A stretch of 64,000 nucleotides of DNA. Origin: Allolobophora icterica (taxonomy: Eukaryota; Annelida; Clitellata; Crassiclitellata; Lumbricidae). Position numbers and translations under genes: made by a program. Numbering within the stretch: the stretch's first letter is position 1; the number at the start of each line of letters is the position of its first letter. The stretch covers positions 36,571,555 through 36,635,554 of the forward strand of contig OY744613.1 of NCBI GenBank assembly GCA_963556255.1, given 5' to 3'. Below the pieces are notes generated by a model. The model did not search any database. It worked only from the letters and a program-made list of their open reading frames with translations, and was not told the DNA's origin. Shown here in pieces: positions 1,266 through 64,000 of this stretch.

Positions 1266-1514
1266 GTCTTAGTGAAGTATTTTCTCCATTCCCTCGGGAG
1301 CTTGTTCATGGAGGCCCATATATGGTTCTCCGGTGGCCTTCGTCTTCTCGAACGCAGGCAACATGTCTGAAGAAGCGCAATCTCCGTCTTCGGATTGTGA
1401 CAGTGACCAGTATCATCGCTGTTCTTCCTTTGATCGCGATATTACTCACGTGGGGGCAGTCTTGTTGTCCTCGAGACCAAGGTCTTGGTCTCGAGTGCAC
1501 TCGAGTACGTTTTT

Positions 1515-1652
1515 AAAAGTCTTGGTCTTGGTCTTGGTCTTGAGGTTCAAGGTCTTGGTCTTGGTCTTGAGGTTCAAGGTCTTGGTCTTGGTCTTGGTCT
1601 CGAGGTTCAAAGTCTTGGTCTTGGTTTTGCAAGACCAAGACCAAGACTTTTG
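1515..1652 (+). repeat. CTTGGT minisatellite, left block of copy 1
   Basis: Tandem AAGGTCTTGGTCTTGGT... units joined by TTGAGGTTC linkers. It ends in an inverted stretch, GCAAGACCAAGACC, which can fold back on the array. Confidence 0.85.
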
Positions 1653-2195
1653 ACAATATAAAGAGTCATTTAACAAAACGCAAGGATTTTAATAATTTAT
1701 CCAATAATTACTAATACAATTGCTTTAGTGTTTACACCGTGTGTGAGTGAGGCTGTACTGTTGCTTTTGACATTTATTTTGACTTCCGGTTAGTTTCCAT
1801 GTAATGATTTCAAAACAGACTCACAATTTGTACATTTACATCCGGTACTTGAAAAGCTGCTCTGTGTGCCAGTGAATTCAGCACTGTAGAACGTATTTTT
1901 CACATGGCAGAATTTTTATGAGGACCCACAGGTCACGTCTTGGTCAGAAAATTCTGAGCGAATTGATTTTTATGAAAATGCAACAGGCATATGGAATAAA
2001 ATTTCGCCCGAAGGACTTCTGTAAATACGAATTCGGAATTCTCTGCAGTCTGCATTTGAAATTGTTTTGTTTGAATAAAATAAAAGATTCGTGTTTAAAT
2101 TAAAATAGCGAGCTGTCTGACTTGACAATTTTTTTAGTAAGGAATTGAAATCTGGATATGGTTGTGAGTTTTGGGTATTGTTCTCGGTTTTGGTA

Positions 2196-2380
2196 TTGAG
2201 TTTCAAAGTCTTGGTCTTGGTCTTGGTCTTGAGGTTCAAGGTCTTGGTCTTGGTCTTGGTCTTGAGGTTCAAGGTCTTGGTCTTGGTCTTGGTCTCGAGG
2301 TTCAAGGTCTTGGTCTTGGTCTTGGTCTTGAGGTTCAAGGTCTTGGTCTTGGTCTTGGTCTTGAGGTTTAAGGTCTTGAC
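2196..2380 (+). repeat. CTTGGT minisatellite, right block of copy 1
   Basis: About five units of roughly 33 bp: several CTTGGT hexamers followed by a TTGAGGTTCAAGG linker. It has the same orientation as the left block, so the two blocks are direct, not inverted, repeats. Confidence 0.85.
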
Positions 2381-2399
2381 AACAAGACTGCGTGGGGGT

Positions 2400-2800
2400 G
2401 AAGTAGATGGTCCAGAGGATCCTGCTAAGGCACTACATATTTCTTTCTTTAGTACCTATGATGGATCACAGAGGCCCTAAACAAGATATACGCTGGTGGA
2501 AATGGCAGACGTTTTACTAATGTCGATAAGGGTTATAGCAGGGATGTCAATTTGGAAAAGACCAAGAGCCAAACCACGTCGGAACAGCCATTTGACAAAA
2601 AACTGACAACAGCTGGAGGCAATGAGTTGGAGGTTTTTGAATCCTTTACCTACCATGACAGGCATACAGTGTCCAGTGGGTCAAACGAACAGAGGATCAA
2701 TCATCGAATCGTCATCGCCATGCAGATCCTGCATGGTCTCCCTGGAGTAAAACACCTGGCGCTCTACAGTCGAGCTGAACACTAACCTACAGCTCTATTA
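2400..2800 (+). pseudogene. Probable RTE-like LINE reverse transcriptase remnant
   Basis: A frame at 2552-2785 reads ELEVFESFTY, then SSGSNEQRINHRI and AMQ, then a LYS-like tail. This resembles the region after the reverse transcriptase catalytic core in RTE-like elements, usually of the form V..F.YLGS.....G....I..RI..A. The stretch is short and isolated, so the call is tentative. Confidence 0.35.
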
Positions 2801-2829
2801 TACTGTGCTGTCAGGACTCCTCTACAAAA

Positions 2830-3790
2830 TTATATCTGTTCCTTCTTTCCAATGAAAATACCAGCCACAACATACCTCTTCGCCGCTCGACACTGTTTCG
2901 GGTGAAGCATATATCTTCGCTTGGAGCCTATATATCTTTGTCTTTGCATTCAGTCTGCCTACATTAAGAAATTTAGCTCAGCATTGTCTATTCTTTGGTG
3001 TAGCACAGGACTCTGCACTCGGTCCTCTCCTTTTCACCCGCACCACTTGTGGCTTGCAGGCTCTAGAACTGCCATCTACATGTATTTGCTGACGACACTG
3101 CGCTTCTGATTTCTTTCGAACGCTCCAAGTCTACTACTTTTCTCAAACTGTTCTCATTTGTTTTCGAAGACTTGCGGATTTTTTATGAACACGAGTCATT
3201 CAATAAATTTGTTTTGAACCTTCCAAAGCGAAATCCTTCCTTTGGACAAGCTATTATACTTAAGGCTATAATGAACTATATGAACTTGAGGCATTAAACA
3301 CCAGTGCAGATCTGTGAATGATTGAAGTGACCGATATTGCACTGCAGTACTGATATTGTACAAGTCTACCTAATAACTGTTATTTAACTTTTCTCCAAAA
3401 ACGTGAACAAACACCCGGAACACCGTAAAACAGAAATTTTTTAATCATGAGAAAATAAATAATTAATGCTATAGTTAATAGGAGTTCAGTCTGAAATACA
3501 GTTCATCCAGTTCACCATACTGATGGTACTAACATATTGTCACCTTTTGATGACTTTTAATGCCAACGAAGTCTACAAAACTGTCCTATGAACTTTGCCC
3601 AACCATAATCGAAAACCGCTGGTCAGTATAACAGTTGCTTCATTGCTTTCATAAGCTCTGCGCTTTGTATGACGTGCTCGTTTTTCTTCAAATGCCTCGA
3701 TACAAAAGTTGGCAGCTTCTTGGTGGTTTTGATCAAATCAGCTGTGATGTCAATGACTTTAGTAGTGCTACTGCAGTACAAAGATCCATA
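2830..3790. other. Intergenic, nothing recognised
   Basis: AT-rich sequence without a supported gene or repeat. Short frames on both strands lack recognisable motifs. Confidence 0.4.
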
Positions 3791-4785: not shown

Positions 4786-4978
4786 GAGTCTGACGTACTT
4801 GGGAAGTATGGACACGGGGAGAGAAACGATAGAGGGCAGATACTGGTGGATTTCTGTGCGAAACACAAACTGGTTATCGCCAACACGCTTTCCAGAATGC
4901 ATAGGCCTAACATGCATAGATATACATGGAAGAGCCCGAATGGAACTACCAGAACCTAAATTGATTACATACTATTAT
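4786..4978 (+). pseudogene. RTE-like LINE endonuclease fragment (part 1 of a split element)
   Basis: Translation gives LGKYGHGERNDRGQILVDFC, then a VIANT motif, then YTWKSPNG and IDYI, the apurinic-like endonuclease pattern of RTE-type LINEs. A TAA interrupts the frame just before IDYI. The element is cut at 4978 by the hAT-like insertion 4979-6487 and resumes at 6488. Confidence 0.7.
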
Positions 4979-6487
4979 CAGTGGCGGATCCAGGATTTCT
5001 TGCGCGGGGGGGCAGGGGTTTCTTCTGATGGGCGCCACGTTCTAGGGTAAATTTGTAATCAACTTTAAATGATAGTACAGGTAGATTTTGAAGTAATGCC
5101 ATTTGTAGTAGACCACTAGTATATACTATCCTATATTAAACTATTTCAAAGTGAAGAAATGTATTCTATGTCCACCGTCAGTGGGAAGATGAGACGGCGA
5201 GGGAGAGGACCCACCCTCATATATCGAGGCTAAGAAAATGAAGTCGCTGGCACTTCATACCCATGGCTGCCTCAGGGCTAGCTTAAGGGACTACTCTTCT
5301 TCTTCTTCTGTTATTTTGCACTTGGCATCGTTCCTGCCTTATTAAATTAGGCATTACAGTTTGATCATTTGAAATCCGAAATTTTGCAAGCAAATGTAAA
5401 ATGTAAATCTTCGACTAAATGAGGTTGCAGATGCTACAAAGAGACTTGGTGCCTACATGTAGGCCCTAATCGATAACATCATCCTGTGGAGTCTGTCTAT
5501 GCGCCTCAAACTTAACCCTGCCAAATCCGAGCTCATCTGGTTTGACCGTTCCTCTAAGCTCCTACAGTGTGCTGAACTCTCACTTTCTACTTCCTCCTCT
5601 CTAAGTTTCAAACATTGTTTGGCATTTGCTTGAAGACTAGCTCGCTTCATAATGTTATGCTTATAGTCGCTTCGCTAAGTTTTCTGCCGGTTTGCGTTTA
5701 GTAGTTTAACGTCAACCATGAGGATACAATTTATAATTATATCAAATATATCACAATTTAAAGCTAATGTTATTTATTTAAGGAACGTGGATTGATATTA
5801 TAAATACCATATATTCTTCGTTTCATGGCAGTTTCATCCAATACGCGGATTGCCAATTAAATCCGAAAGCGACTTGTAGAGAATTGCCATGATAAATATC
5901 CAAAACGCCGCTAGAAATTTGATATACTACACTCTTTAACTGCCGGAATGTGTGCTAGTTTGATGATGCACATCTTTCAGCTTGGCACCGGCGATTTGGG
6001 GTATACAATATCGTATGACTCATATTGAGGATGACTTTGCTTGCCTGTGGGCTGTGTAGGACTCTGTTGTACTTTGGCACTTAGCCTACATCCTGAGACA
6101 CTTACATGGAGAGTGAGGGTCAATTCAGGGTCATGCCAATCTTCCATGTCCTGCCTATATATGTTGTCTGTCTCTCTACCCTCCCTACTACATACGTAAA
6201 GATAGACAGAACAGCAATACTTGGGGAAGCACAGTTGAAATTAGACCTAGCCGACTCAATAGCGATGGGCGTTGTTTATTGGGGTTAAGAAAGTGGGTAC
6301 GATAACCAAGTCCATAGCAAAAATTACGCCTATCACTATGGACATGGCTTTAACGAAACCTCGGTCATGCACGTTCTGGCAGCCCACCATAACAGCCGGG
6401 TCTGGTCTGGAGGGGCGCCGTCAGACAACCAAGAGGGGCGCGGGGGGGCGAACCGCCCCCCCGGGCCTATAGCTAAATCCGCCACTG
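4979..6487. mobile_element. hAT-like non-autonomous element, 1509 bp, inserted in a LINE
   Basis: The ends are CAGTGGCGGAT at 4979 and its inverted match (ATCCGCCACTG) ending at 6487. Perfect 8-bp TSDs ACTATTAT lie at 4971-4978 and 6488-6495. G-rich subterminal runs lie inside both ends. The interior holds a LINE scrap (5425-5610) and otherwise no coding signal. It interrupts the endonuclease region of an RTE-like LINE, so it is younger than that LINE. Confidence 0.9.
5425..5610 (+). pseudogene. LINE reverse-transcriptase scrap inside the hAT-like element
   Basis: Broken frames read ARLGAY, then IDNIILWSLSMRLKLNPAKS, then ELIWFDRSS, the stretch after the FADD box in L2/CR1-like reverse transcriptases. 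It is a second insertion layer within 4979-6487. Confidence 0.55.
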
Positions 6488-7769: not shown

Positions 7770-8310
7770 GTAATTGTAATTGTAATTGTAATCGAGGATT
7801 TATATAGCGCCACTCATAAACAGAGGCGCTCCCGACCCGTGTCAGTGTCTTCACTGACAAAGAGAAATGTTTTCAGGCGCTTGCGAGACTGGGCAGGAGA
7901 CAGAGAGAGGAGGACAAGTCTAAAGCCCTGAGGGAGGCTGTTCCAACTGGAAGGGCCCACAACCGCAAAACTACGGGACTGGGCAGTAGCAGTGCGCATC
8001 CAAGGGACTAACAAGAGGCCACGGGCAGATGACCGGAGAGAGGCCCGACCAGGCAAACTGGAAACTGGGGTGCAGTAAGCCCTGAGATACAGCGGAGCTG
8101 AGCCAACAAGACAGTTAGGCATGAGGGAAAGGACCTTAAATTGAATGCGTTGGTGAATGGGAAGCCAGTGAAGGGAGTCCCGGATGTAGGAAGAGATATG
8201 GGCAAATTTCATGATGCCCCCTATAAGGCGAGCAGCAGCATTAAGGATGGACTGAAGTTTAGATGTGTTAGTAGAGGACAGGCCAATATAGACAGCATAT
8301 AGACAGCTTT
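7770..8310 (-). pseudogene. L2-like LINE 3' end, minus strand
   Basis: The minus-strand frame 8212-7814 reads SSYIRDSLHWLPIHQRIQFK, then LVGSAPLYLRAY, then RSFAVVGPSSWNSLP, the C-terminal pattern of L2-like elements. Upstream (8220-8290) a SILNAAARLIGGI-like stretch continues the match. The 3' end GGCGCTATATAAA is followed by a TGTAAT-type repeat tail at 7770-7793. Its terminal GGGAGCGCCTCTG segment resembles the tail of the SINE at 29200. Confidence 0.75.
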
Positions 8311-8885
8311 CTTGCTCCTGCCTCGTAGTTTACATAAACGACTGTTGACTTAGCCTATTGAGCATTAGGTTGCGTTGTTGCTCGTACACCATTGTTCATG
8401 GCCACGGCTATTTAGCCTCTATCGTATTTGCAACTTCATCTCTGGGCTTTGTATATTTCACCATCAACTGAAAACTTTTGTCTGCCAGCACATAAAGTTT
8501 TCTGTTGCCAGGCTAATGAACCTTTGTGGATCTATTGTAATAGTGAGCATTGTCAAATGTCGGTTTCCCCCCAGTTGTAGTTTTTAGCTGACGTGAATAA
8601 AGATAAGAAACGGAGAAGAAAGAAGCAGCCTGCAGAAACATCAAACATATACACCCTTAAACTAACTTAGTCAAATAAAAAAACAATTATGGGAAATTTT
8701 CAATTAGATATTTCACAAGGGATATTCTTCAACACGCGTCAACTCAATCATTTACAGTTAGACCTACTTCACATCTTCTGGAGGATTTTGCTTCAGAGCA
8801 TTTGCAAAAACGTAGGCCTACGTCAATCCAATACAGTTTCAGTTAACTCAGACTTAGAATTCATAGCAAATGCTTGCAACAATGG
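8311..8885. other. Intergenic DNA downstream of the neuropeptide gene
   Basis: AT-rich, no supported gene. The segment lies beyond the proposed poly(A) signal of the minus-strand gene at 9097-11087. Confidence 0.4.
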
Positions 8886-8891: not shown

Positions 8892-9096
8892 AATATGTTA
8901 GCACTTTAATGTAAACAGAAGGAACGTTATTGTGTGAGCTATAACTTTAAACCCTCAACCCATAAGTGTTTCATTGCTAAATGTTCGATTTTAGCACTGA
9001 GTCTTAATTTCTGGTTCTATTCGAGCAGTTCCTTTTATAGTTTTGTTATCGAGCTTTCTAGACGTTGAACACACATAGTACAAGACACAATGACAC

Positions 9097-11087
9097 TCAA
9101 TTATATCTAAGTTTGCGGTATTTTCCCATCATAAAGGACATCACAGGATCTACAGTCTGGTCTTGTTGCCGCCTGAAGTCGTCTCTGTCTTCATCTTCGA
9201 TACCAAATTGCACCTGTGCCTCGCTGTCTTCCGTAGATCGCTTGTCTAATAGTGAACTTCCGATGTGATCTAATCCACGTTTGTCCAGGAGAGAACTTCC
9301 GATGTGATCAAGTCCACGTTTGTCCAAGAGAGAACTTCCGATGTGATCAAGTCCACGTTTGTCCAGGAGAGAACTACCGATGTGATCAAGTCCACGTTTG
9401 TCCAGAAGAGAACTTCCGATGTGGTCAAGTCCACGTTTTTCTTCCAAGAGAAAACTTCCGATGTGATCAAGTCCACGTTTGTCTAGGAGAGAACTTCCGA
9501 TGTGATCAAGTCCACGTTTGTCCAAGAGAGAACTACCGATGTGATCAAGTCCACGTTTTTCTTCCAAGAGAGAACTTCCGATGTGATCAAGTCCACGTTT
9601 TTCTTCCAAGAGAGAACTTCCGATGTGATCAAGTCCACGTTTGTCCAGGAGAGAACTTCCGATGTGATCAAGTCCACGTTTGTCCAAGAGAGAACTTCCG
9701 ATGTGATCAAGTCCGCGTTTGTCCAGGAGAGAACTTCCGATGTGATCAAGTCCACGTTTGTCCAGGAGAGAACTTCCGATGTGATCAAGTCCACGTTTGT
9801 CCAGGAGAGAACTTCCGATGTGATCTAATCCACGTTTGTCCAGGAGAGAACTTCCGATGTGATCAAGTCCACGTTTGTCCAGGAGAGAACTTCCGATGTG
9901 ATCTAATCCACGTTTGTCCAGGAGAGAACTTCCGATGTGATCTAATCCACGTTTGTCCAGGAGAGAACTTCCGATGTGATCAAGTCCACGTTTGTCCAGG
10001 AGAGAACTTCCGATGTGATCAAGTCCACGTTTGTCCAGGAGAGAACTTCCGATGTGATCAAGTCCACGTTTGTCCAAGAGAGAACTTCCAATGTGATCTA
10101 ATCCACGTTTGTCCAGGAGAGAACTTCCGATGTGATCAAGTCCACGTTTGTCCAGGAGAGAACTTCCGATGTGATCAAGTCCACGTTTGTCCAAGAGAGA
10201 ACTACCGATGTGATCAAGTCCACGTTTGTCCAGGAGAGAACTTCCAATGTGATCAAGTCCACGTTTGTCCAAGAGAGAACTTCCAATGTGATCAAGTCCA
10301 CGTTTGTCTAGGAGAGAACTTCCAATGTGATCAAGTCCACGTTTGTCCAGGAGAGAACTTCCAATGTGATCAAGTCCACGTTTGTCCAAGAGAGAACTTC
10401 CGATGTGATCAAGTGCACGTTTGTCTAGGAGAGAACTTCCAATGTGATCCAAACCACGTTTTCTTAAAAGAGAACTTCCGATGTGATCTAGTTCGCGTTT
10501 TTCTTCAAATTCTCGTTTTTCTAGAAGTGAGCTACCGATGTGATCTAAGCCTCTCTTATCTTCGTCGTAGTCAGTGTCATGAAATTCTGCGTGACTAGAA
10601 AGACAATAGAACAGCCTTTATTAGTCACCATACAAACGATCAGTTTACAGTTTTTATCCTTAAATGCCTGCAGATAATCTTGCTTACTTGATGTTCTGGG
10701 TAAAGAAAAACTGCAACTGCAATCTAGAGTGTCCATGGCGGCGGATTGTGGGAATGGAGGTTATATGCGAAATTACTGGGGATAAGCAGTCGCAGACCAA
10801 CAGCAGCATCTTCTTCGACCTGCAGGCTAAAGATACAGTGTTACGTGCTCATAATTTAAGCAACAGAAGAGAATCGGTCAAGAGCTTTCGGATTCGCAGA
10901 AGATTAAATTACATATATGTCTAAGATTATGTCGCCGTTAAGAAGTGGCTGCAAAACTGTAGTAACTTTAATAAATCCCTATGATACAAGTTATTATAAA
11001 TAGTAATTTTGCAAAAACTTACCTATGAGGCATCAGAAAGTGCAAAATTGCCGTTAAGAAAATCATGGAATTCCTCATCTTGAACAT
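9097..11087 (-). CDS. Multi-copy neuropeptide precursor, 33 peptide units, two coding exons
   Basis: Exon 1 (11087-11023) encodes a signal peptide: MFKMRNS, then a hydrophobic core IFLTAILHFLMP. It ends in a GTAAGT donor at 11022. Exon 2 (10594-9097) follows a pyrimidine-rich tract ending TTTCTAG. The phases match exactly (AG joined to T), giving a 520-residue protein with a likely cleavage site after SHA, about residue 24. After an acidic stretch ending DEDKR come 33 units of the type GLDHIGSSLLD-KR, then a 46-residue acidic tail. KR cutting and trimming of basic residues would release GLDHIGSSLLD 27 times, plus ALD- and ELD-headed, LLE, LLEE and SFLLEE variants. The LD.IG pattern recalls orcokinin-B and molluscan pedal peptides, but family membership is inference. 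Expected site: secretory granules of neurons or endocrine cells. A 5' untranslated exon may exist, since an acceptor-like TTGCAG lies 18 nt upstream of the ATG. Confidence 0.85.
9238..10551 (-). repeat. 39-bp coding minisatellite, 33 units
   Basis: 1314 bp equals 33 units of 39 bp, plus three single-codon (GAA) insertions, plus one 18-bp spacer encoding EFEEKR. Units are nearly identical even at silent sites, with recurring variants (GATCTAATCC versus GATCAAGTCC; TTCCAATG versus TTCCGATG) scattered through the array. That pattern points to repeated unequal exchange or gene conversion. Confidence 0.95.
10595..11022 (-). other. Intron of the neuropeptide precursor gene
   Basis: 428 nt, GTAAGT at the 5' end (11022 downward) and TTCTATTGTCTTTCTAG at the 3' end (AG at 10596-10595). 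It interrupts the codon for Ser-22 after two bases, just before the predicted signal-peptide cleavage site. Confidence 0.8.
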
Positions 11088-11105
11088 CTCTGAGGTTGTT
11101 GCAGT

Positions 11106-15514: not shown

Positions 15515-15965
15515 TAAGTTAAGTATATTCTTTATTAAACGCTAGCAAACGCACAGCGCTTTACATACAATTTTACACAAAGAGGAAAGAAAAATATAAG
15601 AGTAATAATGACGTTAGATTATAAATGAAAAAAATAGCAACAGAGCCTAACTGTACGGCATCCTACCCAGGAAACCTCGTCGGGTAAGGGAGTCAAATCT
15701 AGGGAGAATCAGATTATGAGAACGAGGGCGCAAATCATACCCGGTCTTTAGAACAGAAGGTAGAAGGTCACGGAGGAGGTGACTAGGGTTTTTGAGAATG
15801 TTCTTAAAGAGATCACGATCAGCTTTTTTGCAAAGTTCCTCAAAAGTAGGAAAAGAAGGAGGGAGGTAGCCGAGACAAACCAACTTATGGATAATTGCAC
15901 CCAAATGATCAAGTTCCTGCTTGTTGGCAAAGCCTAACCATACCTGGGAACAGTAGCCTACAGCA
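15515..15965 (-). pseudogene. CR1-like LINE fragment (AWWG family), minus strand
   Basis: Minus-strand frames read LGYLPPSFPTFEELCKKAD, then RNPSHLLRDLLP-like sequence, then GYDLRPRSHNLILPRF, matching the last third of the elements at 58480 and 36930. The 3' end (TTCTTTATTAAACGC on the plus strand, 15526-15540) resembles the tail at 45722. Confidence 0.65.
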
Positions 15966-18069
15966 TACGGTTGACAGTGGTAGCCTGTATTACATCATGA
16001 AGCCTGGGGCCCGAGAGCCCATGAGAAATCAAGATACGATGAGCGTAAAGGGATTGTTTAGCCTGTATGCTTAGTTTTTGGATATAAGGACAGAAGCCAA
16101 ACTTAAAAGTGTGTCGTCAAATTATACAGATTACGGTACACCCGCACATCCTGAATACCGTGTGGGTGTTTACATACATACATACATACATACATGAGCC
16201 TACATGCATGCCTGAAGAATTAATAAAAAAGAATTTAAGGCTCAACCAAACAGAAGTTTCTGTTTTTCAAAAGAGACAATATAAAGGTTAAATGAGAATC
16301 TCCAGCGAATCATGTGTTGTTCTTTAAAGAGACGAAGCTAATTAGTCAGAATCTTCAAGAGATCCTTAGACTCGGTTTGTAGTTCTTCTAGTTCGTCAGA
16401 GTTATCTTTCAGGTGAGTGAGCTGTTGACAGCTTCGTTCTTGATGTCCTTGTCGTGTCAATCCATGCGATGACGTCAGGCTATATTTGGAACGACAATTT
16501 CTGGGTGACGGTTCCATTACTGTCAGGTCGTGTAGAAGACTCGTCCGCTGTCTCTCGACTCCTCGATGGATTTAATGATTACTAGTGCGAATCATTCACG
16601 CCATGACATACGTCTAATGAAACACGTTTTCCGACTGAATTACTTCATCTTCGTTATACTCTCAACACGACTGTCAAGCCGCTTATGAGTGTGCCTCTGC
16701 CTCTGTCCTCCTACTTCTCTTCCTACTTCTCTTCCTTGTCCTACTGCTCGCTCTTCTGCTCCTACTACTTCTCCTTCTCTGTCGAATGATGGGCCAATGA
16801 TACTTTTGGTTGGAGCACGTTCTACGACGAGACGGAGAAATAGAAAGAGGAGGCAGAGGAAGAGGAGAAGGAGGAAGGTGAAGGATACGCAGCAGGAGAT
16901 GGCAGTAAGAGGAGAAGGATAAAGAAGAGGAAGAGCACAGAAGAAAGAAATGTAAGGAGGCAAAAGGGGAAAGGAGAAGACTGGGGAGAAGGAGCAGAAA
17001 GATAAGGAGGGCGGAGGAGTGAACGAAGAGTAAGACTGAGTAAGACTCAGAGCAAATAAGACATAAATTGAGTGCGTCTTAATTCGTCTTTTAAGCGGTC
17101 ATCGTCGTATGAATGTCACTTTGTGGGAAAGCATTTGTCCGATGATGATGATGATGATGATGATGATAATGACGACGACGACAATGATGATGATGATGAG
17201 CTGCTCCTCCTCATTATCTTCGTCGTCACAAACAATGCCAATAACCGTGCTGCAGACGTCGCATTAAAATCGTAACTGTGGTCAGTGGAGAGGATCAGAT
17301 GAGTCGACTGGAGACCGACAGAAAGAGACAACGGAAGGACGATTGACCTGCACCTGCTGCGCTGTCGTGTATGAGGAGGTAATCGAAGCATGAAAGTCAT
17401 CGAAGCATGGAAGTATCGTTGGAGTACATTTTGTCATGGCTGTCGTCATTTACTTATTAACCATGTTTTGTAGGCCTAAGGGAGCAAATGTTTCAAAATG
17501 GCAAGTGGCATTGAATCTCCTCCACAAGGCCAGGGATGCTAACGATCCGCGGGGACACAGTTCACTTGTTCCGACCACCATCAGCAGCCACCGATAGCAG
17601 CAGCGATAGTAGTAGCAGACTGAGCCAGACTTAGAAGCAATCGAACAAGATCTAAGAACTACGGCTCAGAGGTCTAAACCGTCGACAAGTCATTGACGCT
17701 TTATCGACGTCGCATAATATTTCATCCGCATCTGTCAGCGACAGAACGATACGAGCGGAGGATCAGGAACGAGAAAACGACGACGTTTGATCGACGGAAG
17801 GCAACTGAATAGGACTAGGACTATTATGCATGACCGCTTCATCTCTTCTCCTCGTAGACCCTTCAAAATGCGGTCAACATCCATTCCGATTGATCCAAAT
17901 ACGAACAAAATAAATAAGCATCACTCGATTAAAAATCCGTGAAGTTATTATTCACCACCTATTAAGCAAAAAGGTGGCAAGAAGCATTTGAAGATGGAAG
18001 AGTGTCCAGGTGCTGTCTTCTGTTGTGCTAGCACCACTCTGTTATACAAGACAACAATGGTCAATCTCA
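15966..18069. other. Intergenic with low-complexity tracts
   Basis: Contains a short (CATA)n at 16172-16195, a pyrimidine then purine block at about 16690-17000 (GAGGAAGAGGAG type) and a (GATGAT)n/(GACGAC)n repeat at 17141-17202. No supported gene. Confidence 0.45.
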
Positions 18070-18077
18070 GCAGAAGT

Positions 18078-18995
18078 CAGTCTTGTTGTCCTCGAGACCA
18101 AGGTCTTGGTCTCGAGTGCACTCGAGTTCGTTTTTAAAAGTCTTGGTCTTGGTCTTGGTCTTGAGACCAAAGGTCTTGGTCTTGGTCTTGGTCTTGAGGT
18201 TCAAGGTCTTGGTCTTGGTCTTGGTCTTGAGGTTCAAGGTCTTGGTCTTGGTTTTTCAAGACCAAGACCAAGACTTTTGTCAATATGAACAGTCATTAAT
18301 TTTAACAAACGGCAAGAATTTTAAAAATTTATCCAATAATTACTCATACAGTTATTGCTTTAGTATTTACACGGTGTGAATGAGGCTTCACTGTTGTTTT
18401 GGATAATTATTTTGACTTCCGGTTATTTACCATGGAATGATTTCAAAACCGACTCACGATTAATTTGTACATTTACATCCGGTTCTTGAATAGCTGCTTT
18501 GTGTGCTAGCGATTTCAGCACTTGTAGACCGTGTTTTTTCACATGGCAGAATTTTTTGAGGCCCCACAGGTCACGTGTTGGTCAGAAAATTCTGAGCAAA
18601 TTGGTTTTTATAAAAGTCAGCAGGCATTTGGAATAACATTTCGCATGAAGGACTTTTGTAAATACGAATTTACAATTCTCTGCAGTCTCCATTTAGAGTT
18701 GTTTTGCTTGAATAAAAGAAAAAAACTCATGTTTTCATTAAAATAACGAGTATTTCGACTTGACAATTTTTAGTAAGGAATAGAAGTCTGGATACGACTG
18801 TGATTTTTTTGGGTCTTGGTCTCGGTCTTGGTCTTGAGGTTCAAGGTCTTGGTCTTGGTCTTGGTCTCGAGGTTCAAGGTCTTGGTCTTGGTCTTGGTCT
18901 TGAGGTTCAAGGTCTTGGTCTTGGTCTTGGTCTTGAAGTTCAAGGTCTTGGTCTTGGTCTTGGTCTTGAGGTTCAAGGTCTTGACAACAAGACTG
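18078..18995 (+). mobile_element. Minisatellite-bearing hAT-like element, copy 2 (918 bp)
   Basis: Same 13-bp inverted ends as copies 1 and 3, with perfect 8-bp TSDs GCAGAAGT (18070-18077 and 18996-19003). CTTGGT minisatellite blocks lie at about 18135-18255 and 18812-18975. The core between them aligns by eye with copies 1 and 3 (for example CACAGGTCACG and GGAATTCTCTGCAG-like motifs). Confidence 0.9.
18812..18978 (+). repeat. CTTGGT minisatellite, right block of copy 2
   Basis: About five units of CTTGGT hexamers with GAGGTTCAAGG linkers; one linker reads GAAGTTCAAGG. Confidence 0.85.
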
Positions 18996-26015: not shown

Positions 26016-27400
26016 CTCTGATGGCCGTGTGTTGAGTGCCTATGCCAGAAGGTGTGCGATAGAAAGCATTACAATTACACATACATACGTACATGCATAC
26101 ACACATACTTTACATAAAATATGCTGGACACAAAAGCTCCCAAGGTCGACCGCGCATCGCTCGCCTAATCGACCCAGCGCGATCGATTTTCAACCCGCCT
26201 ACTATTTTCAAATCAGACGCACTGCCACCAGCAACTACTTTCTAGACTCTGCGAATGCAAACTAGATCACGTTAGAAGCCCGAATGAACGAAAGTTATCC
26301 AGAAAATCCGCCTATGATTTGATCAAAATGCTCGAGAACATGCGACCATTTTGGTCACAACAAGAGGACTGTCAGAATTATCTTCATGCTAACTCACTGA
26401 GAGAATGAAAAAATTTCAGCTTGCAGTTGCGCACGAATCGGGTTCGGGTTTTGGAACCCATGGTCTGCTAATGTAGGCCTATTCCTGTCAGCTGAACTGG
26501 GTGGAAAAATTTATTTATTTTTACGCAGGGCTGGGCGCAGTAACCGCTGTAGTGATGATAGTTTAACTTAGGAGATTTGTGAAAAAATTGAACTGAAGTT
26601 CTTTAAAAGCATCCAGTCACCCCAACACTGTCAGTGTCTTCACCAATTACTGTCTGCAGAGCACCTTCATAAATCAACTGACGAAAAAGGGGACATGCAT
26701 TTGAATTACCGCACTTTAAGACATGCTGCATAAGAAATCCCTCATGTGTACAACTATAAAACCTGGATTAATGCTGGTTCTAGTGGCTGTTCTGTTATCT
26801 AACCATTAATACATGACTTTCTCCTTACAACATCAGAATGCAGCTCAACATTAAATACTAATCAGAATGACAATAAATGTGACTTGCAACATGTTTTATT
26901 ATCAAAATGGAAAATTGGTTTTTGGGGGAGGGGAGAGCTATGTGACGTTATTTTTGAGAGGTCTACTTTTGTGACGACTTGTGGCGAAAGGGTAGGGAGG
27001 AAATCGGCCAAAATCCCGTGACGTCATTGATGGAATTTCCGCCCTTTGAAAGATACCGCTCTACTGCGGCTCTAGGCAGCCGCCTATGGGTCAATTGCCT
27101 ATACCTACAGTCGGCAATGAACCTAATAACCCATCAAATTTCAAGTCAATCGGTGTAAGGATTTTGGCTTAACAGAGGATAAAAATCCTTGTTTCCTACA
27201 GTTGAGTACTGTCACCGCTTAGACTTATTAAGCTGCGCTGCCGTAGCAGTTTGTGATAAATGATGGTAATATGCACATAATAGAATAGACAGGAGGAGTA
27301 TATCTCTTAAACTTAGAAGCACGGCTAATGTCTTTGGAGGAAGCATTCTTTAGTGACAATGGTCTGACTTGGCTCCATTAGGTCAGATTAGAAAAGTAAA
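26016..27400. other. Intergenic, nothing recognised
   Basis: No supported gene or named repeat. A few CATACATA steps lie at 26080-26110. Confidence 0.4.
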
Positions 27401-27629
27401 GGCAGTAGAAAACGAAAAAGAAGAGGAAGAAGAGGAGGAGATGGAGAAGTAGAAGGAGGAGGAGGAGATTCATTTCCTTGCGACTTTTACGGTCGGTTGA
27501 TGGCATTCCTCCCTTAACACTTAGACTTCTGTTATTGCTGCTAAGAGAAACAAAATGAACTGTAAAGTCAGACGAGGAAAGGACTTGACGTACCGTAAAG
27601 TCATTGATACAACCGCCGCCACAGCCAAC

Positions 27630-27860
27630 ACCACGACCACCACCATCTTCATCACCACGACCACCACCATCTTCATCACCACGACCACCACCATCTTCAT
27701 CACCACGACCACCACCATCTTCATCACCACGACCACCATCATCTTCATCACCACGACCACCACCATCATCACCACGACCACGACCACCACCATCTTCATC
27801 ACCACGGCCACTATCACCATCATCACCACGACCACCACCATCACCCACATCACCATCATC
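27630..27860. repeat. 21-bp minisatellite CCACCATCTTCATCACCACGA
   Basis: About eight degenerate units of a 21-bp CAC/ATC-rich repeat. It gives long open frames on several strands (Gly-Arg-Asp-Glu, Thr-rich, Pro-Ser rich), all repeat artefacts. Confidence 0.9.
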
Positions 27861-27949
27861 ACTACCAGTCACCGCTTCGTTTTGAAAATTCACTTAGCGC
27901 TCTGCACCACATTGTGGCAGAGCCATGAGGCAGGTTGCCTCAACTGGAG

Positions 27950-28245
27950 TGAGATAGAGAGAGAGGGAGATAGAAACAGACAGAGAGACAGAGAGAGATG
28001 AAGACACAGAGGTAGAAAGATACAGAAATAGAAATAGACATATAGAAAGAGACAGAGACAGATGGAGAGAGAAAGAAAGAGAAAGAGAGAGTGACAGAAA
28101 AAGAGGTAGAAATGGTAGAAGAGGTAGAAAGAGCGACATATAGGCCTAGATACAGACAGAGATAGAAAGAGACACAGAAAGAAAGAAAAAGAGAGACAGA
28201 GAGAGAGACAGATGCAGATAGAGATAGAAAGAGAGAGAGAGACGG
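27950..28245. repeat. GA-rich low-complexity tract
   Basis: Irregular AGAGACAGAGA and GATAGAAAG units over about 300 bp; purine-rich on the plus strand. Confidence 0.9.
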
Positions 28246-42720: not shown

Positions 42721-43801
42721 GGAAGGAAGGGTATGGCGAGGAAGAGGTAGGGGGATTAAGGGCCCCTGAGAATTTGGTGGGCTTAATCCGGGCCTGGACC
42801 CATATTCCCATTATCGCATCTAATGCCCATGGAAATGCTGGGAGGGCGAAGCGCATGACAGCCTTTAGTCAATCCATTTTTTGTTGTTTTTATCCGGTAG
42901 TCTAGTAAGAACGACAGAATTTGTCTTCCGCACTATGTGGGGGGAGAGGGGGAGAGGCGCCTGAGTCATTTTCCGGTAATATGTCACATTCACTAATTGA
43001 AGGAGCAAATCTTTAATATTTCTATTTTACTAATATATATTTGGTTTTGCACTAATATGTAAAATTATGAAGTTATTAGCAGAAAGAAAATAGCCCTACG
43101 AAAATGTTTGTCCACTCCGTTACTCCGTTACCAAAACAAATATCAGCTATTTATATATAGTAGACAGCTTCCTTCTGCGTAGTTTGACATGCCAATATGT
43201 TTTTAGTATTAATGTTAATAAAATAAATATAAAAGAAATTACAATACAAATGATTATTTAATTCCATCACATTTTAAATTTTGCTAAGAAATTCCACTCC
43301 GTTACCGAAAGAAAAATAGGGAATCTAATCAACGTAAAGTTGACTGTATTTTTTTTTTGCCAAATAACAAAATAAAAATCACTTGAGCCAATCATTACCA
43401 GTGATCAAATGAACAAAAAAACATTAAAATATTTATGATGTTGTCTTAAAAATCTGCTCATAACATCAAAATTACATAAAAAATTACAATAAAAAGTTCC
43501 GCTCCGTTACCATTTGTCGAGAATTGAGCACAGAATGTGAAAAGTGAACTTTAAAAAAAAACAGTCTGCCGAAGCAAAAATTTATTTTAAATGTCATATA
43601 TTGTTATATAAGTTGTATTAGAAATGATAATTTAAGTAAACGACTTATCCTGACAGTGGAATAAATTTTAGTACCTCAAGGGTCACATTTATGGTAACTG
43701 AGTGGACAGTTAACGGAGTGGACAAATTGTGTATCAGCACGGTAAATATCATATTATCTCTCATGCGTCCACATTAATCGTCGGTACACTCATTATATAG
43801 C

Positions 43802-44678
43802 CAGTCTTGTTGTCCTCGAGACCAAGGTCTTGGTCTCGAGTGCACTCGAGTTCGTTTTTAAAAGTCTTGGTCTTGGTCTTGATTTTCAAGGTCTTGGTCT
43901 TGGTCTTGAGGTTCAAGGTCTTGGTCTTGGTCTTGGTCTTGAGGTTCAAAGTCTTGGTCTTGGTTTTGCAAGACCAAGACCAAGACTTTTGTCAAAATGA
44001 ACAGCCATTAATTTTAACAAACGGCAAGAATTTTAAAAATGTATCCAATAATTACTCATACAGTTATTGCTTTAGTATTTACACAGTGTGAATGAGGCTT
44101 CACTGTTGTTTTGGACAATTATTTTTGACTTCCGGTTATTTACCATGAGTTCAAAACAGACTCACGATTTATTTGTACATTTACATCCGGTTCTTGAAGA
44201 GCTGCTTTGTGTGCTAGCGATTTCAGCACTTGTAGACATGGCAGAATTCTTATGAGGCCCCACAGGTCACATCTTGGTCAGAAAATTCTGAGCAAATTGG
44301 CTTTTATAAAATTCGACAGGCATTTGGAATAACATTTCGCATGAAGGACTTTGTAAATACGAATTCGGAATTCTCGGAATTCTCAACAATTAGAGTTGTT
44401 TTGCTTGAAAAAAAGAGAAAACTCATGTTTTCATTAAAATAACGAGTAGTCCGACTGGACAATTTTTAGTAAGGGATAGAAGTCTGGATACGACTGTGAT
44501 TTTTGGGGTCTTGGTCTCGGTCTTGGTCTTGAGGTTCAAGGTCTCGGTCTTGGTCTTGGTCTTGAGGTTCAAGGTCTTGGTCTTGGTCTCGAGGTTCAAG
44601 GTCTTGGTCTTGGTCTTGAGGTTCAAGGTCTTGGTCTTGGTCTTGGTCTTGAGGTTTAAGGTCTTGACAACAAGACTG
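43802..44678 (+). mobile_element. Minisatellite-bearing hAT-like element, copy 3 (877 bp)
   Basis: The same 13-bp ends CAGTCTTGTTGTC, with perfect 8-bp TSDs TATATAGC (43794-43801 and 44679-44686). CTTGGT blocks lie at about 43862-43970 and 44506-44660, shorter than in copy 1. It is nested in the element 42963-45341. Confidence 0.92.
44506..44662 (+). repeat. CTTGGT minisatellite, right block of copy 3
   Basis: About five units with GAGGTTCAAGG linkers; unit lengths vary between two and three CTTGGT hexamers. Confidence 0.85.
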
Positions 44679-57693: not shown

Positions 57694-58475
57694 CTATTCA
57701 ACATTCAATCACAAACAGAAGTCAAGACCCATTACCAATAGCAACAGAAATAGTAATCAAGATAAATGCAGCAGCTGAAAGACAATTAATTGTCATATAC
57801 AAAGGTGCTTTTTGAATGCAGTTTTGAAGGTTAACGCAAATTAATTAGGACTCTTAATAAACAAGATCATCATCGACATAAAAAATAACAGGTATTGACA
57901 GAAGTTGACGCATGCTAGCATCATGTGGGAGTATGCAATTACAGATACTAATACATGTACTAGTATGTAGTTCTTTGATCAGCACGTTATGCTAGAAATT
58001 ACTGCACTGCCCGTTTGAGTGCTTTGAGTTTTGGCACATTAACAAATTTCCATATTTTATGAATCTGTGTTGGAAGTGGGAATATCTTTCTTGGATCTAG
58101 TGTATGTCTATGCAATAATCATTTGTTAGTAATTAGCTGGCCTGTCTCATTATGACACCAGACTGACCTATGATCCAAAAGGCTCCTCTCACCCAGCCAA
58201 CAACAAAAAGGGTTTTCATCATAACCAGTTCTTCGCTGAGCAATGATGCAGAAATGCCACAACTGTCATAATGATTTCTCATTCTGAGGCGAAAAATTAA
58301 ACTAAGTGCATCAACAGTCATCTTACAGACAAGGAGGCCTAAATAAAGGATCTGCCGCGATGCAGTGAGCGCCTTTTCGCTTGACTGTACCTATGTTTTT
58401 TAAAACATTGCTACACAATCTAGTGATAAATGCACGATGTTCAATAAATAAAAAAGCTAGTCCAACTTTTTAATA
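57694..58475 (-). other. Intron sequence upstream of the TSC22 exon
   Basis: No further exon recognised. The acceptor side has a weak pyrimidine tract. Confidence 0.45.
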
Positions 58476-58479
58476 CTTT

Positions 58480-59236
58480 TTTTTAACTTTTTGATAAACT
58501 CGGAAATCAGGCACATCGAGATCTGGGCTGCGAGATGTAATCTGAAGCTTAACCAAGCAAAGACCCAGGAAATGGTTGTCCGTAAGCCGAGAAGAAAACT
58601 GAATGAAAACCAGCCGATGGAGATTCCTGGTCTTTCCAGAGTCAGAATCATGAAGATCTTGGGTGTCACGCTCTCCGATGACTTCTGCTTTGACGTGCAT
58701 GTTGACAATCTATGCACTGGTGCAAGACAATCAATGTATGCATTACGGATCCTGACTACTCATAGACTACTTGGCCCCTCAATGTACGAAGTGGTGACAG
58801 CTACCACAGTGGCGAGGATGACGTACGCTGCGTCCGCTTGGTGGGGTTATGTGGGGCACAGGGGACGTGAGAGACTACAGGCAATATTTAGGAGACTGAT
58901 TAAAGCTGGTTATCTTCCTGTGGACTACCCTAGATTCAAACAATTGATCCGTACTGCTGATTCTAAACTTTTCACGACCATCCTTACATGTCCTACACAT
59001 GTGCTTCATGTGCTATTACCTCCTGTTAAGCATACGGGTTATACTTTGCGACCCCGTGTTCATAATCGGGTTCTCCCGACTGCTGATAGTCTAGCTCGTA
59101 AATCTTTCATAATTAGGATGATTTTCACCGGAATATAGGCCTTAGTACTTTAATCTGGACGTGATATACATGTGTAAACCAAAATGCGGTTAGCAGTTGG
59201 ATTAATAAAGGATATACTTACTTACTTACTTACTTA
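58480..59236 (+). pseudogene. CR1-like LINE (AWWG family), RT thumb to 3' end
   Basis: A single open frame (58491-59138) of 215 codons reads IEIWAARCNLKLNQAKTQEM, IMKILGVTLSDDFCFDVHV, VARMTYAASAWWG, RERLQAIFRRLIKAGYLP, then GYTLRPRVHNRVLP. It is truncated at the 5' side just after where the FADD box would be. The tail is (ACTT)n at 59216-59235. The frame is unbroken, so this copy is younger than its relatives at 15515, 36930 and 49638. It lies in, or near, an intron of the TSC22-domain gene in antisense orientation. Confidence 0.85.
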
Positions 59237-61439: not shown

Positions 61440-64000
61440 GCAGAGGCTATCTTCTCTTCTTTCTTCTCTTCATCAGTGATCTGACGATGAGGCCTTTACG
61501 AAACTTCTCCAAGTTCTCTATTCTTGATTGTCTCGCCGATTCCGGCTAGGTCGGTGCCTTTCTCCCCTAGTCCTCCTTGATGTTGTCCATCCAGGTCTTC
61601 CTCTGCCCTCCTCTACTTCTCTTCCCCTCCACATGTCCGTGTAATGCAGCATTTGGTAACCTCTTTTCTCCCATCCTGCTTACATGGCCAAACCATCTGA
61701 GTCTCCTCTTCCCGATCTTTTCCACTATTGTTTCTTCTACTCCCAGCTCTTCTCTTGTTTTCTCATTTCTGATCTTCTCTCTTCTGCTTCTGCCTATGAT
61801 TCTTCTTAGCCAGCCCATCTCCGCCACCAGCAGTCTTCGTTCGTCCTCCTTCCTCAAGCACCAGCATTCTGACCCGTATAGTAGCACCGGTTCTACCAAA
61901 GCATGATATAGCTTCATTTTGACTCTGGTGGTGATATTTTTTGCCTTCCACATTTTTCCTAGTCCTCCAAAAGCCGCACAAGCCAGGCCAATTCTTCGTT
62001 TGATGTCCGCCTCACATCTGCCATCTTCTGCTATCAGTCCTCCGAGATAGACGAATCCAGTAACCTGTTCCAGTTCCCTGTTCTCTATTCTTATCTGTAG
62101 CTTCTCCTGTTGTTTTCCGATCACCATTGTCTTTGTTTTCTCCGCGTTTATTTTAAGTCCCATTCTTCTACTACTTTCCTCCACCCTACTCGTTAGATCC
62201 TGCAGCTTCTCCTGTGTGTCTGCCATCAGATCTATGTCGTCTGCGAACCGGAGGTTGTTTAGTGGTCGTCCGTTTAAGCTTACTCTGTCTTCATCCTCCT
62301 ATTCCGCTAGTCTCATCACCATTTCCAGCATCAGATTGAACAAGTCCGGCGACATTTTGCATCCCTGCCTTACTCCTGTCTTGACCCCAAACCATTCTGT
62401 CAGCTCTCCATCCACTCTCACAGCACTTTCAGACTTGTTATATATGTCCTCTATCAGCATCACTAGTTCTTCTGGTATTCCACAGTGTCTCATTGTTCTC
62501 CACAGTCCCTCTTGCCATACACTGTCAAATGCCTGCTTGTAGTCTATGAAGTTATTGTACAGTACTCTATTCTTTTCGATGTATTTTCCGATAGTTGTCT
62601 AATCACAAATATTTGATCTATTGTGCCTCTCTCCTTTCTAAATCCCGCCTGTTCTTCACTCATCGCTTCCTCCACGTATCTCTTCAGTCGGTGTTGTAGT
62701 ACTCCGGTGTATACCTTCCCGGGTATGCTTAACAAGCTAACTGCTCGGTAGTTGCTACATTCCGTTTTGTCTCCCTTCTTATATATTGGCACAATTATGG
62801 CTTTGCACCAGTCTTTGGGGCATTCTCTGCCCTGGTAGATTTTGCTGCACAGTCTGTGTAGCATCTCTATCGAGCAACTCCCTCCTGCCTGTAGCATTTC
62901 TGCTGTGATGTTGTCCTCTCCTGGTGCCTTTTTCCTCTTCAGGTTCCTGACCGCTGTTTCTACTTCTTCCTCCAGTATGTCCAGCATCTGTTCCTGTCTG
63001 TTGCTTTCTGGTAACTCTTCCAGCACCGTTCTGTCCACCGGATTCCCACCGTTATATAATTCCTCGTAGTGTTGCTTCCATCTTTGCTTGATTTCTGTTT
63101 TGTCATCGATTAGTCTCCCTCCTTTATCCCTCACTGTGGCTAATCTTGCGTTGACTGTTCCACATATTTCTCTTGCCACCTGGAAAAGCTTCCCCGTGTT
63201 TAGTGCTCCCGGTGAATTCTCTCTACCTCCTGGCATTTTTCCTCTATCCATTCCTCTTTACATCTTGTTGCTCTTCTTCTTATTTCTTTCGTAATTTCTT
63301 TGTATCTTCTCATGTTTTCCTCGCTGTGTGTTCTCATCTTTCTCACGTCTCTTCTTATATCACTTAAGACCAGTACTTCTCTGGTTATCCATGGTTTTTT
63401 CTTCTTTCCTTTTGTTCGTCCCAAGACCTGTTGTGCCGTCTCAGTAAACGCGTTCTTTATCTCTCCCCACATTTCCTCTACCGTGTTCATCTCCTTCTCA
63501 TTGCTTTGCCTCCATCTGTTCTCCAGTTGTGTGCTTGTTTTGTCATCTCTCAATCCTTCCATATCAAATCTATTATTTGTCCCTCTCTTGTCCATTTTCC
63601 TCAGTTTTATTCTAACTCCTGCCATCACTAATCCCGAGTTGGATGCTATGTCTGGTCCTGCAAAGGTTCGACACTTTGTTATTGCGCTTCTCCACCTGTT
63701 GTTTACCATTATGTAGTCTATCATGTTCTTTGTCTTGCCGTCTGGTGATTCCCATGTCCATTTCCTACTGGCCTTTCTTTGGAAGAACACTGTGTTCATT
63801 ATCCACAGGTCATTGTTCAGACAAAAGCTCAGCAGCCTCTCTCCTCGCTCATTTTCCTCTCCATATCCATGTTTCCCCAATGCTCCTCTCCATGTTTTCC
63901 AATCCCTTCAAACTTTAGCGTTGAAATCGCCCATTACTATGGTTACATCTTGATTCGATATTCCTTGGATCGTCTGCTGCAGGGTCTCATAAAACTTGTC
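61440..64000 (-). pseudogene. Decayed RTE-like LINE, endonuclease plus reverse transcriptase, runs off the right edge
   Basis: Minus-strand order: endonuclease VMGDFNAKV (about 63945-63912), then KHGYGEENERGERLLSFC, YTW-like RKWTWESPDGKT, IDYIMVNNRW and ASNSGLVM in the 63880-63200 frame. Then comes the RT: KRKKAPGEDNITAEML, IVPIYKKGDKTECSNYRAVS, QAGFRKERGTIDQI (63251-62544), FIDYKQAFDSVWQ (about 62555-62517), GVRQGCKMSPDLFNLML, RFADDIDLMA (about 62250-62221), VYLGGLIAEDG and LRWFGHVSRM. Breaks: TGA after FNAKV (63910-63908), frameshifts near 63220 and 62560, TAG at about 62298-62300, and a frameshift at 61567. The endonuclease SDH motif reads SNS. The element is dead, though the RT catalytic box is intact. 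Confidence 0.88.

Follow-up and report, generated by a model that had tools for sequence, protein, structure and literature searches.

The window analysed here, 64,000 nucleotides of Allolobophora icterica DNA (G000:C13:36571555-36635554), carries on its minus strand what we take, with a probability of about 70%, to be an animal gene, seemingly present in a single copy, that encodes a secreted prepropeptide of the pedal peptide/orcokinin (PP/OK) type, nearest to the orcokinin B/FDSIG side. Two exons splice into a product of 520 residues, which comprises a signal peptide, an acidic spacer, 33 units and a tail. By every sequence test applied, the gene is real and complete; it is ordinary in kind and extreme within its kind.

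Gene model and coding constraint

The gene has the following features.

11087-11023, minus strand: coding exon 1, 65 nt, beginning with the start codon and ending at the second base of codon 22; encodes the predicted signal peptide MFKMRNSMIFLTAILHFLMPHS...
11022-10595, minus strand: intron, phase 2, 428 nt, with the borders AG/GTAAGT ... TTTCTAG/T
10594-9097, minus strand: coding exon 2, including the stop codon (9099-9097)
10552-10587, minus strand: acidic N-terminal spacer EFHDTDYDEDKR; the equivalent in the database protein P0001 is EFHEIDYDEDKR
10551-9238, minus strand: array of 33 units, 1314 bp (30 units of 39 bp, three of 42 bp and one 18-bp insert)
10512-10495, minus strand: EFEEKR insert, 6 residues, 18 bp, after unit 1
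9100-9237, minus strand: C-terminal tail STEDSEAQVQFGIEDEDRDDFRRQQDQTVDPVMSFMMGKYRKLRYN, 46 residues
8886-8891, minus strand: AATAAA polyadenylation-like signal downstream of the gene, a consensus match alone; ATTAAA is also found at 8910

Exon 2 is open (498 residues) only with an intron of phase 2, the other frames reaching a stop after 5 and 15 residues, and exon 1 supplies this phase. The N-terminus is hydrophobic, with a hydropathy peak of 2.35 within residues 8-19. A predicted signal-peptidase site fits after ...MPHSHA, the signal peptide being called from hydropathy and by eye. The first Met is replaced by Thr in P0001, which suggests that the true start may be Met4 (MRN...). A possible splice acceptor in the 5´ UTR, spotted by eye, lies at approximately 11106. 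Twenty-seven of the 33 units are exactly GLDHIGSSLLDKR (GLDHIGSSLLD-KR); the variants are GLDHIGSSLLEEKR (two units) and GLDHIGSSLLEKR, ELDHIGSSLLRKR, ALDHIGSSLLDKR and GLDHIGSFLLEEKR (one unit each), and LDHIG is present in all 33. Tandem Repeats Finder gives the array a score of 2054, and it is therefore not a chance feature. An Rfam scan of the window returned no match at gathering scores. Pfam found no family above cut-off in a precursor shortened to fewer units; the sole match, Csx12 (E 0.038), lies below the cut-off and was taken as chance.

A near-ortholog is P0001, which the shortened precursor retrieved in a protein search with an E-value of 2.9e-87 (six of the 8000 scored candidates had an E-value of 10 or below). 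This protein of 170 residues is encoded on a 969-bp JGI contig and reads MAAETFKMRNFLIFFTAILHFLMPHSHAEFHEIDYDEDKR, followed by six units that include the EFEEKR insert and a tail resembling that of the window product. In BLASTP, it is identical to the shortened window product at 132 of 165 aligned positions. P0001 reads MPHSHAEFH unbroken across the position of the window's intron, and JGI gene callers are not known to splice; because the protein crosses this point, its contig is most likely a spliced cDNA. Searched back against the genome, residues 3-26 of P0001 match window positions 11022-11093 in exon 1 (75%, E 0.005), and the protein also matches both ends of exon 2. Sharing the junction and both ends but having 6 units versus 33, P0001 supports the gene model and shows that the unit number has changed. 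A second relative, P0011, has two units and a tail identical to the window tail at 17 of 42 aligned residues; its N-terminus may be missing. The tail motif RRQ.Q.V.P....MG.YRK.RY, sought in these two relatives, is common to both and to the window product. A scan of viral_contigs with P0001 gave six pattern matches and no relatives.

Variation among the units follows the sense reading frame. Thirty 39-bp units contain 22 distinct single-base changes relative to their consensus. Read in the sense frame, 16 of these leave the amino acid unaltered; the expected share is 24.8% (29 of 117 possible changes; binomial p 3e-6). In the remaining five frames, 2, 1, 3, 10 and 3 of the 22 are synonymous, the best antisense frame reaching 10. 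The change CTT to TTT, scored as one of the six replacements, is confined to units whose Leu codon is TTA or TTG, and the true synonymous share is therefore above 16/22. Across the 33 units (36 aligned columns), the minor-letter cells number 19, 3 and 38 at the first, second and third codon positions, and all 19 first-position cells fall in two Leu codons (CTN/TTR). Nineteen distinct DNA versions of the unit encode six protein versions, and no unit contains a stop or a frame break.

These results agree with the original prediction, which had proposed a GTAAGT donor and a TTTCTAG acceptor joined in phase, a 520-residue layout of signal peptide, spacer, 33 KR-separated units (27 identical) and tail, an array of 1314 bp and coding in the sense direction. 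Only phase 2 keeps exon 2 open and P0001 reads through the junction; hydropathy fits the signal peptide; the span 10551-9238 reproduces the arithmetic; and the preponderance of synonymous changes in the sense frame is joined by the conservation of the sense-frame ends in P0001.

Relatives and family assignment

The original prediction had left it to a protein search whether the spliced product has relatives. Relatives do exist: 15 proteins in the databases (P0001-P0015) contain units of this kind. A profile of seven sequences recovered P0001-P0014 (14 of the 8000 scored candidates had an E-value of 1 or below), the weakest being P0014 with an E-value of 0.0035, and the 520-residue query recovered P0015 and P0010 (7999 scored, two with E up to 1). 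Only two of the 15 records name an organism, namely P0005 (a hypothetical protein of Pomacea canaliculata) and P0010 (an uncharacterized protein of Ostrinia furnacalis). The match to P0010 has an E-value of 2.8e-4 with the full-length query and 2.8e-11 with the seven-sequence profile, both made optimistic by the repetitive sequence. P0010 carries NLDSIGGGNFV-type and NFDEID-type units, which we take to represent the orcokinin B and orcokinin A patterns, respectively. Its five best windows sum to 61.5 versus a maximum of 40.5 in 2000 shuffles, a flattering comparison since shuffling also breaks the repeats of P0010; the score of its single best window was reached by 9 of 2000 shuffles. NCBIfam returned nothing near a cut-off for P0001, P0007, P0010 and P0015.

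Fifteen sequences (the window product, P0001-P0009 and P0011-P0015, with P0010 omitted) supplied 54 distinct units, and a shared core was derived from these. It reads x-(L/F)-D-x-(I/V)-G-S-(S/G)-L-(L/I), with D in 52 of the 54 units, I/V at position 5 in 51 and G at position 6 in 53. The units were chosen by a loose pattern that requires D/H/N and G/E/A at core positions, and their conservation is in part by construction.

With moderate confidence, we assign the window gene to the PP/OK superfamily, on its orcokinin B/FDSIG side, and do not count it as a classical pedal peptide. Its product has a hydrophobic start, as judged by hydropathy, followed by 33 KR-bounded related units; all 33 contain the (F/L)D-x-I/L-(G) core; and it is similar in sequence to P0010, which also bears NFDEID-type units. 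The C-terminal SGFx motif that marks classical pedal peptides in the excerpted text of PMC5860471 is absent from the units, which end in SSLLD.

Comparison of published peptides with the LDxIG profile points in the same direction. The score of the Bugula FDSIG peptide SFDSIGNGPIGL over six positions was reached by 10 of 5000 shuffles; over ten positions, the scores of the Bugula FDSIG peptides P1 and P2 were reached by 0 and 2 of 2000, and those of two Bugula PEP peptides by 9 and 3 of 2000. For Tribolium SLDGIGGGNLVG, 3 of 2000 shuffles reached the score. Of two Locusta peptides quoted in print, neither matches more than weakly (70/2000 for NLDGLGGGHLLRQT and 155/2000 for the other). The Aplysia pedal peptide shows no match to the ten-position profile (1336/5000) and a weak one over six (241/5000), and starfish SMP does not match (624/2000; 3183/5000 over six positions). 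Likeness across 5-10 residues can, of course, reflect convergence.

Each known system shares part of the design of the window gene. Insect orcokinin B (Ostrinia P0010 and Tribolium SLDGIGGGNLVG) has the xLDxIG core and tandem copies but ends in GGN(L/F)V, whereas the window units end in SSLLD. Arthropod orcokinin genes give rise to alternative A and B transcripts; the insect gene also yields, from the A form, NFDEID-type (orcokinin A) peptides, and the units of P0010 are fewer and more varied than the 33 of the window. B-orcokinins are described in excerpts of PMC4237046, where SLDGIGGGNLVG and NLDGLGGGHLLRQT are quoted and the Tribolium peptide is said to resemble orcomyotropins and orcokinin B. 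The BnFDSIG-like precursor of Bugula neritina, as excerpted from PMC4990251, resembles the window gene in that it has a signal peptide and repeated units that end in KR and share an SxDxIGxG core; it encodes eight peptides of 12 residues in four variants with a GPIGL end, in contrast to 33 near-identical units. The classical pedal peptide of Aplysia, PLDSVYGTHGMSGFA, is likewise multi-copy (17 copies) with D-x-(V/I) near the N-terminus, but the peptide quoted in PMC5860471 lacks the IG core and has the SGFx end, the opposite of the window units.

The peptide had been called apparently undescribed, which is only partly true. Neither the peptide nor its core was found in print: the complete 11-mer, like 18 strings taken from the core, returned no relevant paper among PMC open-access main texts, as judged by titles and abstract starts. 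On the other hand, 15 database proteins carry related units, and the (L/F)DxIG core is found among described orcokinin B/FDSIG-type peptides. Pedal peptide groups 1-3 appear in nemerteans and others in the excerpt of PMC8557429. The window gene is an extreme and apparently unnamed member of a known neuropeptide type, 'unnamed' being provisional since most precursor lists sit in supplements, outside the scope of a main-text search.

Related arrays and repeats in the genome

The genome searched comprises 1.118 Gb in 328 contigs. The Chitin_bind_4 and molluscan haemocyanin families gave no match in it, nor in any of 14 control genomes, a result that does not show either family to be absent. A four-unit query gave 12 matches; 11 lie inside the array, and the twelfth, at C13:36688312-36688386, is on the opposite strand. 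With P0002 as query there were 16 matches, of which 14 fall inside the array, one crosses it on the opposite strand (E 0.24) and one is located at C14:26754099 (E 0.59). This second search scored only eight candidates and overlooked both loci listed below; it was insensitive, and single-copy status is therefore provisional.

G000:C13:36683400-36693300 (L009), at 4911-5001 and 5304-5332 of this interval, strand opposite to the gene: array relic, approximately 107 kb from the gene
G000:C1:34242152-34243792, minus strand: second precursor (L026, C1:34240500-34246500, array at 1675-3257), 601-residue open frame

The relic spans 91 bp and is 85.7% like units 2-4; other stretches of the array match it too, up to 87.2% over 86 bp. 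It is out of frame and interrupted by a dispersed repeat, past which a further 28-bp piece is found. The same dispersed repeat occurs in the window at 16531-16746 (94.6%).

The second precursor was detected with the Aplysia pedal peptide as query, which gave 22 genome matches at an E-value of 1 or below; this interval contains 14 of the 22 (E 0.0016-0.33). Like the window gene, it has 33 dibasic-bounded units (32 by pattern plus a first variant, ALDSISYRSSFGKPH) and varies mainly at third codon positions (17, 18 and 114 by position in 32 units). Its unit differs, with 15 residues and an internal FGG; most units read (A/S)FDSIGG...GL(D/E), 23 are AFDSIGGASAFGGLD, and KK or KR follows each. The score of AFDSIGGASAFGGLD against the LDxIG profile was reached by 7 of 5000 shuffles over six positions and, weakly, by 95 of 5000 over ten; two variants of the unit do not match the ten-position profile (1689/5000 and 668/5000). 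No convincing start exon was found within 12.4 kb upstream. Two nested frames 9.7 kb away were considered as first exons and not accepted, their phase 1 fitting neither reading of the acceptor. As read from sequence, the genome of Allolobophora icterica contains two amplified PP/OK-like precursors with different units.

Of the other pedal-peptide-query matches, two on C11 (approximately 24787600-24788000) belong to a low-complexity repeat that is open in three frames of one strand and were set aside; six further weak matches are located at C11:46647257, at C11:13784817, on C14, on C4 and, twice, on C7. Weak genome matches of P0001, two on C20 and one on C1 (E 0.002-0.009), proved to be satellites with 39-bp and 20/39-bp periods and without dibasic units. 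The 39-bp tandem satellites at G000:C20:43303000-43306500 and G000:C1:43908000-43911000 are unrelated to the gene. The one on C20 has approximately 69 copies, and almost all of them are interrupted by a stop in the matched frame, in contrast to the open 39-bp array of the window.

Several other repeats were observed. A dispersed repeat of approximately 0.92 kb with two blocks of a 33-bp GGTCTT-rich minisatellite occurs at window positions 1457-2390, 18075-18995 and 43799-44678 (85-91% alike) and at 2764-3665 of L009 (78-81%). Reverse transcriptase fragments from non-LTR elements lie at window 61567-63907 on the minus strand, with Pfam RVT_1 at 61567-62298 and 62544-63257. Window segments 58461-59138 (plus strand) and 7814-8329 and 15650-15994 (minus strand) look LINE-like by eye, with no Pfam match over the cut-off. 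A CCACCA-rich array at 27378-28001, with long open frames on both strands, is probably a simple repeat.

Proposed processing, alternatives and array growth

Prohormones are cut by convertases at Lys-Arg and trimmed by carboxypeptidases. The signal peptide of the window product would route it into the secretory pathway, where prohormone convertases would cleave after Lys-Arg and a carboxypeptidase would then remove KR. Each precursor would yield approximately 33 peptides, chiefly GLDHIGSSLLD with a monoisotopic [M+H]+ of 1126.574 and an [M+2H]2+ of 563.791, alongside minor forms that end in EE or begin with ALDH or ELDH; they are expected to be free acids without amidation, because no Gly precedes KR. 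We infer a neuropeptide role; less certainly, the peptides may be released from neurons or neuroendocrine cells and act on a G-protein-coupled receptor.

A precursor of like layout could instead serve an exocrine product (a salivary, mucus, skin or defence peptide) and encode no neuropeptide, which we consider quite unlikely. The case for it is Lom-SG-SASP of Locusta, which resembles the window gene in its two coding exons and identical KR-separated copies (excerpts of PMC5533153 and PMC4237046). It has a signal peptide, yet immunostaining marks the acini of the salivary gland, where RT-PCR also detects its transcript, whereas no ganglion is RT-PCR-positive; it proved not to be a typical neuropeptide (excerpt of PMC5533153). 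A very high and uniform copy number would also suit bulk secretion. However, PMC4237046, as excerpted, gives Lom-SG-SASP no homolog in other species, whereas units related to those of the window gene occur in the 15 database proteins, two from named animals, and Ostrinia P0010 adds NFDEID-type units. A pseudogene, a tandem-repeat assembly artefact or transcription of the other strand is very improbable. A broken piece of the array lies approximately 107 kb away, short tandem units may collapse or expand in assembly, and a 453-residue antisense frame is open; but the reading frame runs through all 33 units uninterrupted by a stop, and P0001 keeps the sense-frame N-terminus and tail. Antisense coding was rejected on this conservation and on the better fit of the changes to the sense frame (16/22 synonymous versus 10/22).

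It is unlikely, if somewhat less so than the exocrine reading, that the window gene belongs to a separate neuropeptide family (LDxIGSSL, with its own receptor) whose likeness to orcokinin B/FDSIG is convergence on a short motif. The C-terminal half SSLL(D) is unlike classical PP/OK peptides, and LDxIGxxL-like cores occur in units, chosen by pattern, of each of P0001-P0009 and P0011-P0015. Common descent nevertheless accounts better for the core at the N-terminus, for the dibasic layout and for the matches to an orcokinin-like precursor, and the FDSIG precursor on C1 bridges both groups in the first half of its unit. A further reading, also rather unlikely, is that GLDHIGSSLLD and its relatives form a subfamily of animal neuropeptides that has yet to be named and has a receptor to itself, apart from pedal peptide and orcokinin A. 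In this lineage, two such precursors would have expanded independently to 33 near-identical copies each, raising the dose of a peptide without gene duplication, with P0001 (6 units) and P0011 (2 units, perhaps incomplete) as low-copy relatives.

The array bears marks of its growth. Adjacent units differ less than random pairs (2.50 versus 3.05 differences; 18 of 5000 shuffles were as low), and the end units are the most divergent (mean differences of 8.97 for the first and 7.59 for the last versus 1.9-5.5 for the others). Such a pattern is what unequal exchange usually leaves behind when it acts on the central part of an array. Exchange of this kind inside the gene would have enlarged the array and would keep its units uniform; growth would have raised the dose of one peptide per transcript, and selection would hold the peptide sequence. 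The exact count of 33 could be off through assembler miscount.

The original prediction placed this precursor at the high end of copy numbers and its peptide at very high stoichiometry, and both descriptions are fair: 33 units per precursor compare with printed figures, in excerpts, of 21 copies in a sea urchin PP-type precursor (PMC5860471), up to 28 in Lottia FCAP (PMC6425005), 36 in Renilla Antho-RFamide (PMC4346854) and 50 in Stylophora GPRGamide (PMC7523074). With 36 and 50 already in print, 33 copies is high, yet no record.

The window gene connects scattered, mostly unnamed database proteins that carry LDxIGSxL units. GLDHIGSSLLD is one defined, easily made ligand at very high stoichiometry, and together with the low-copy relatives it would be practical in the search for a PP/OK receptor, which a 2017 paper, in the excerpt of PMC5656890, calls imperative yet unmet. 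The near-orthologs, with 6 units in P0001 versus 33 in the window, offer a clean case of copy-number growth inside a neuropeptide gene.
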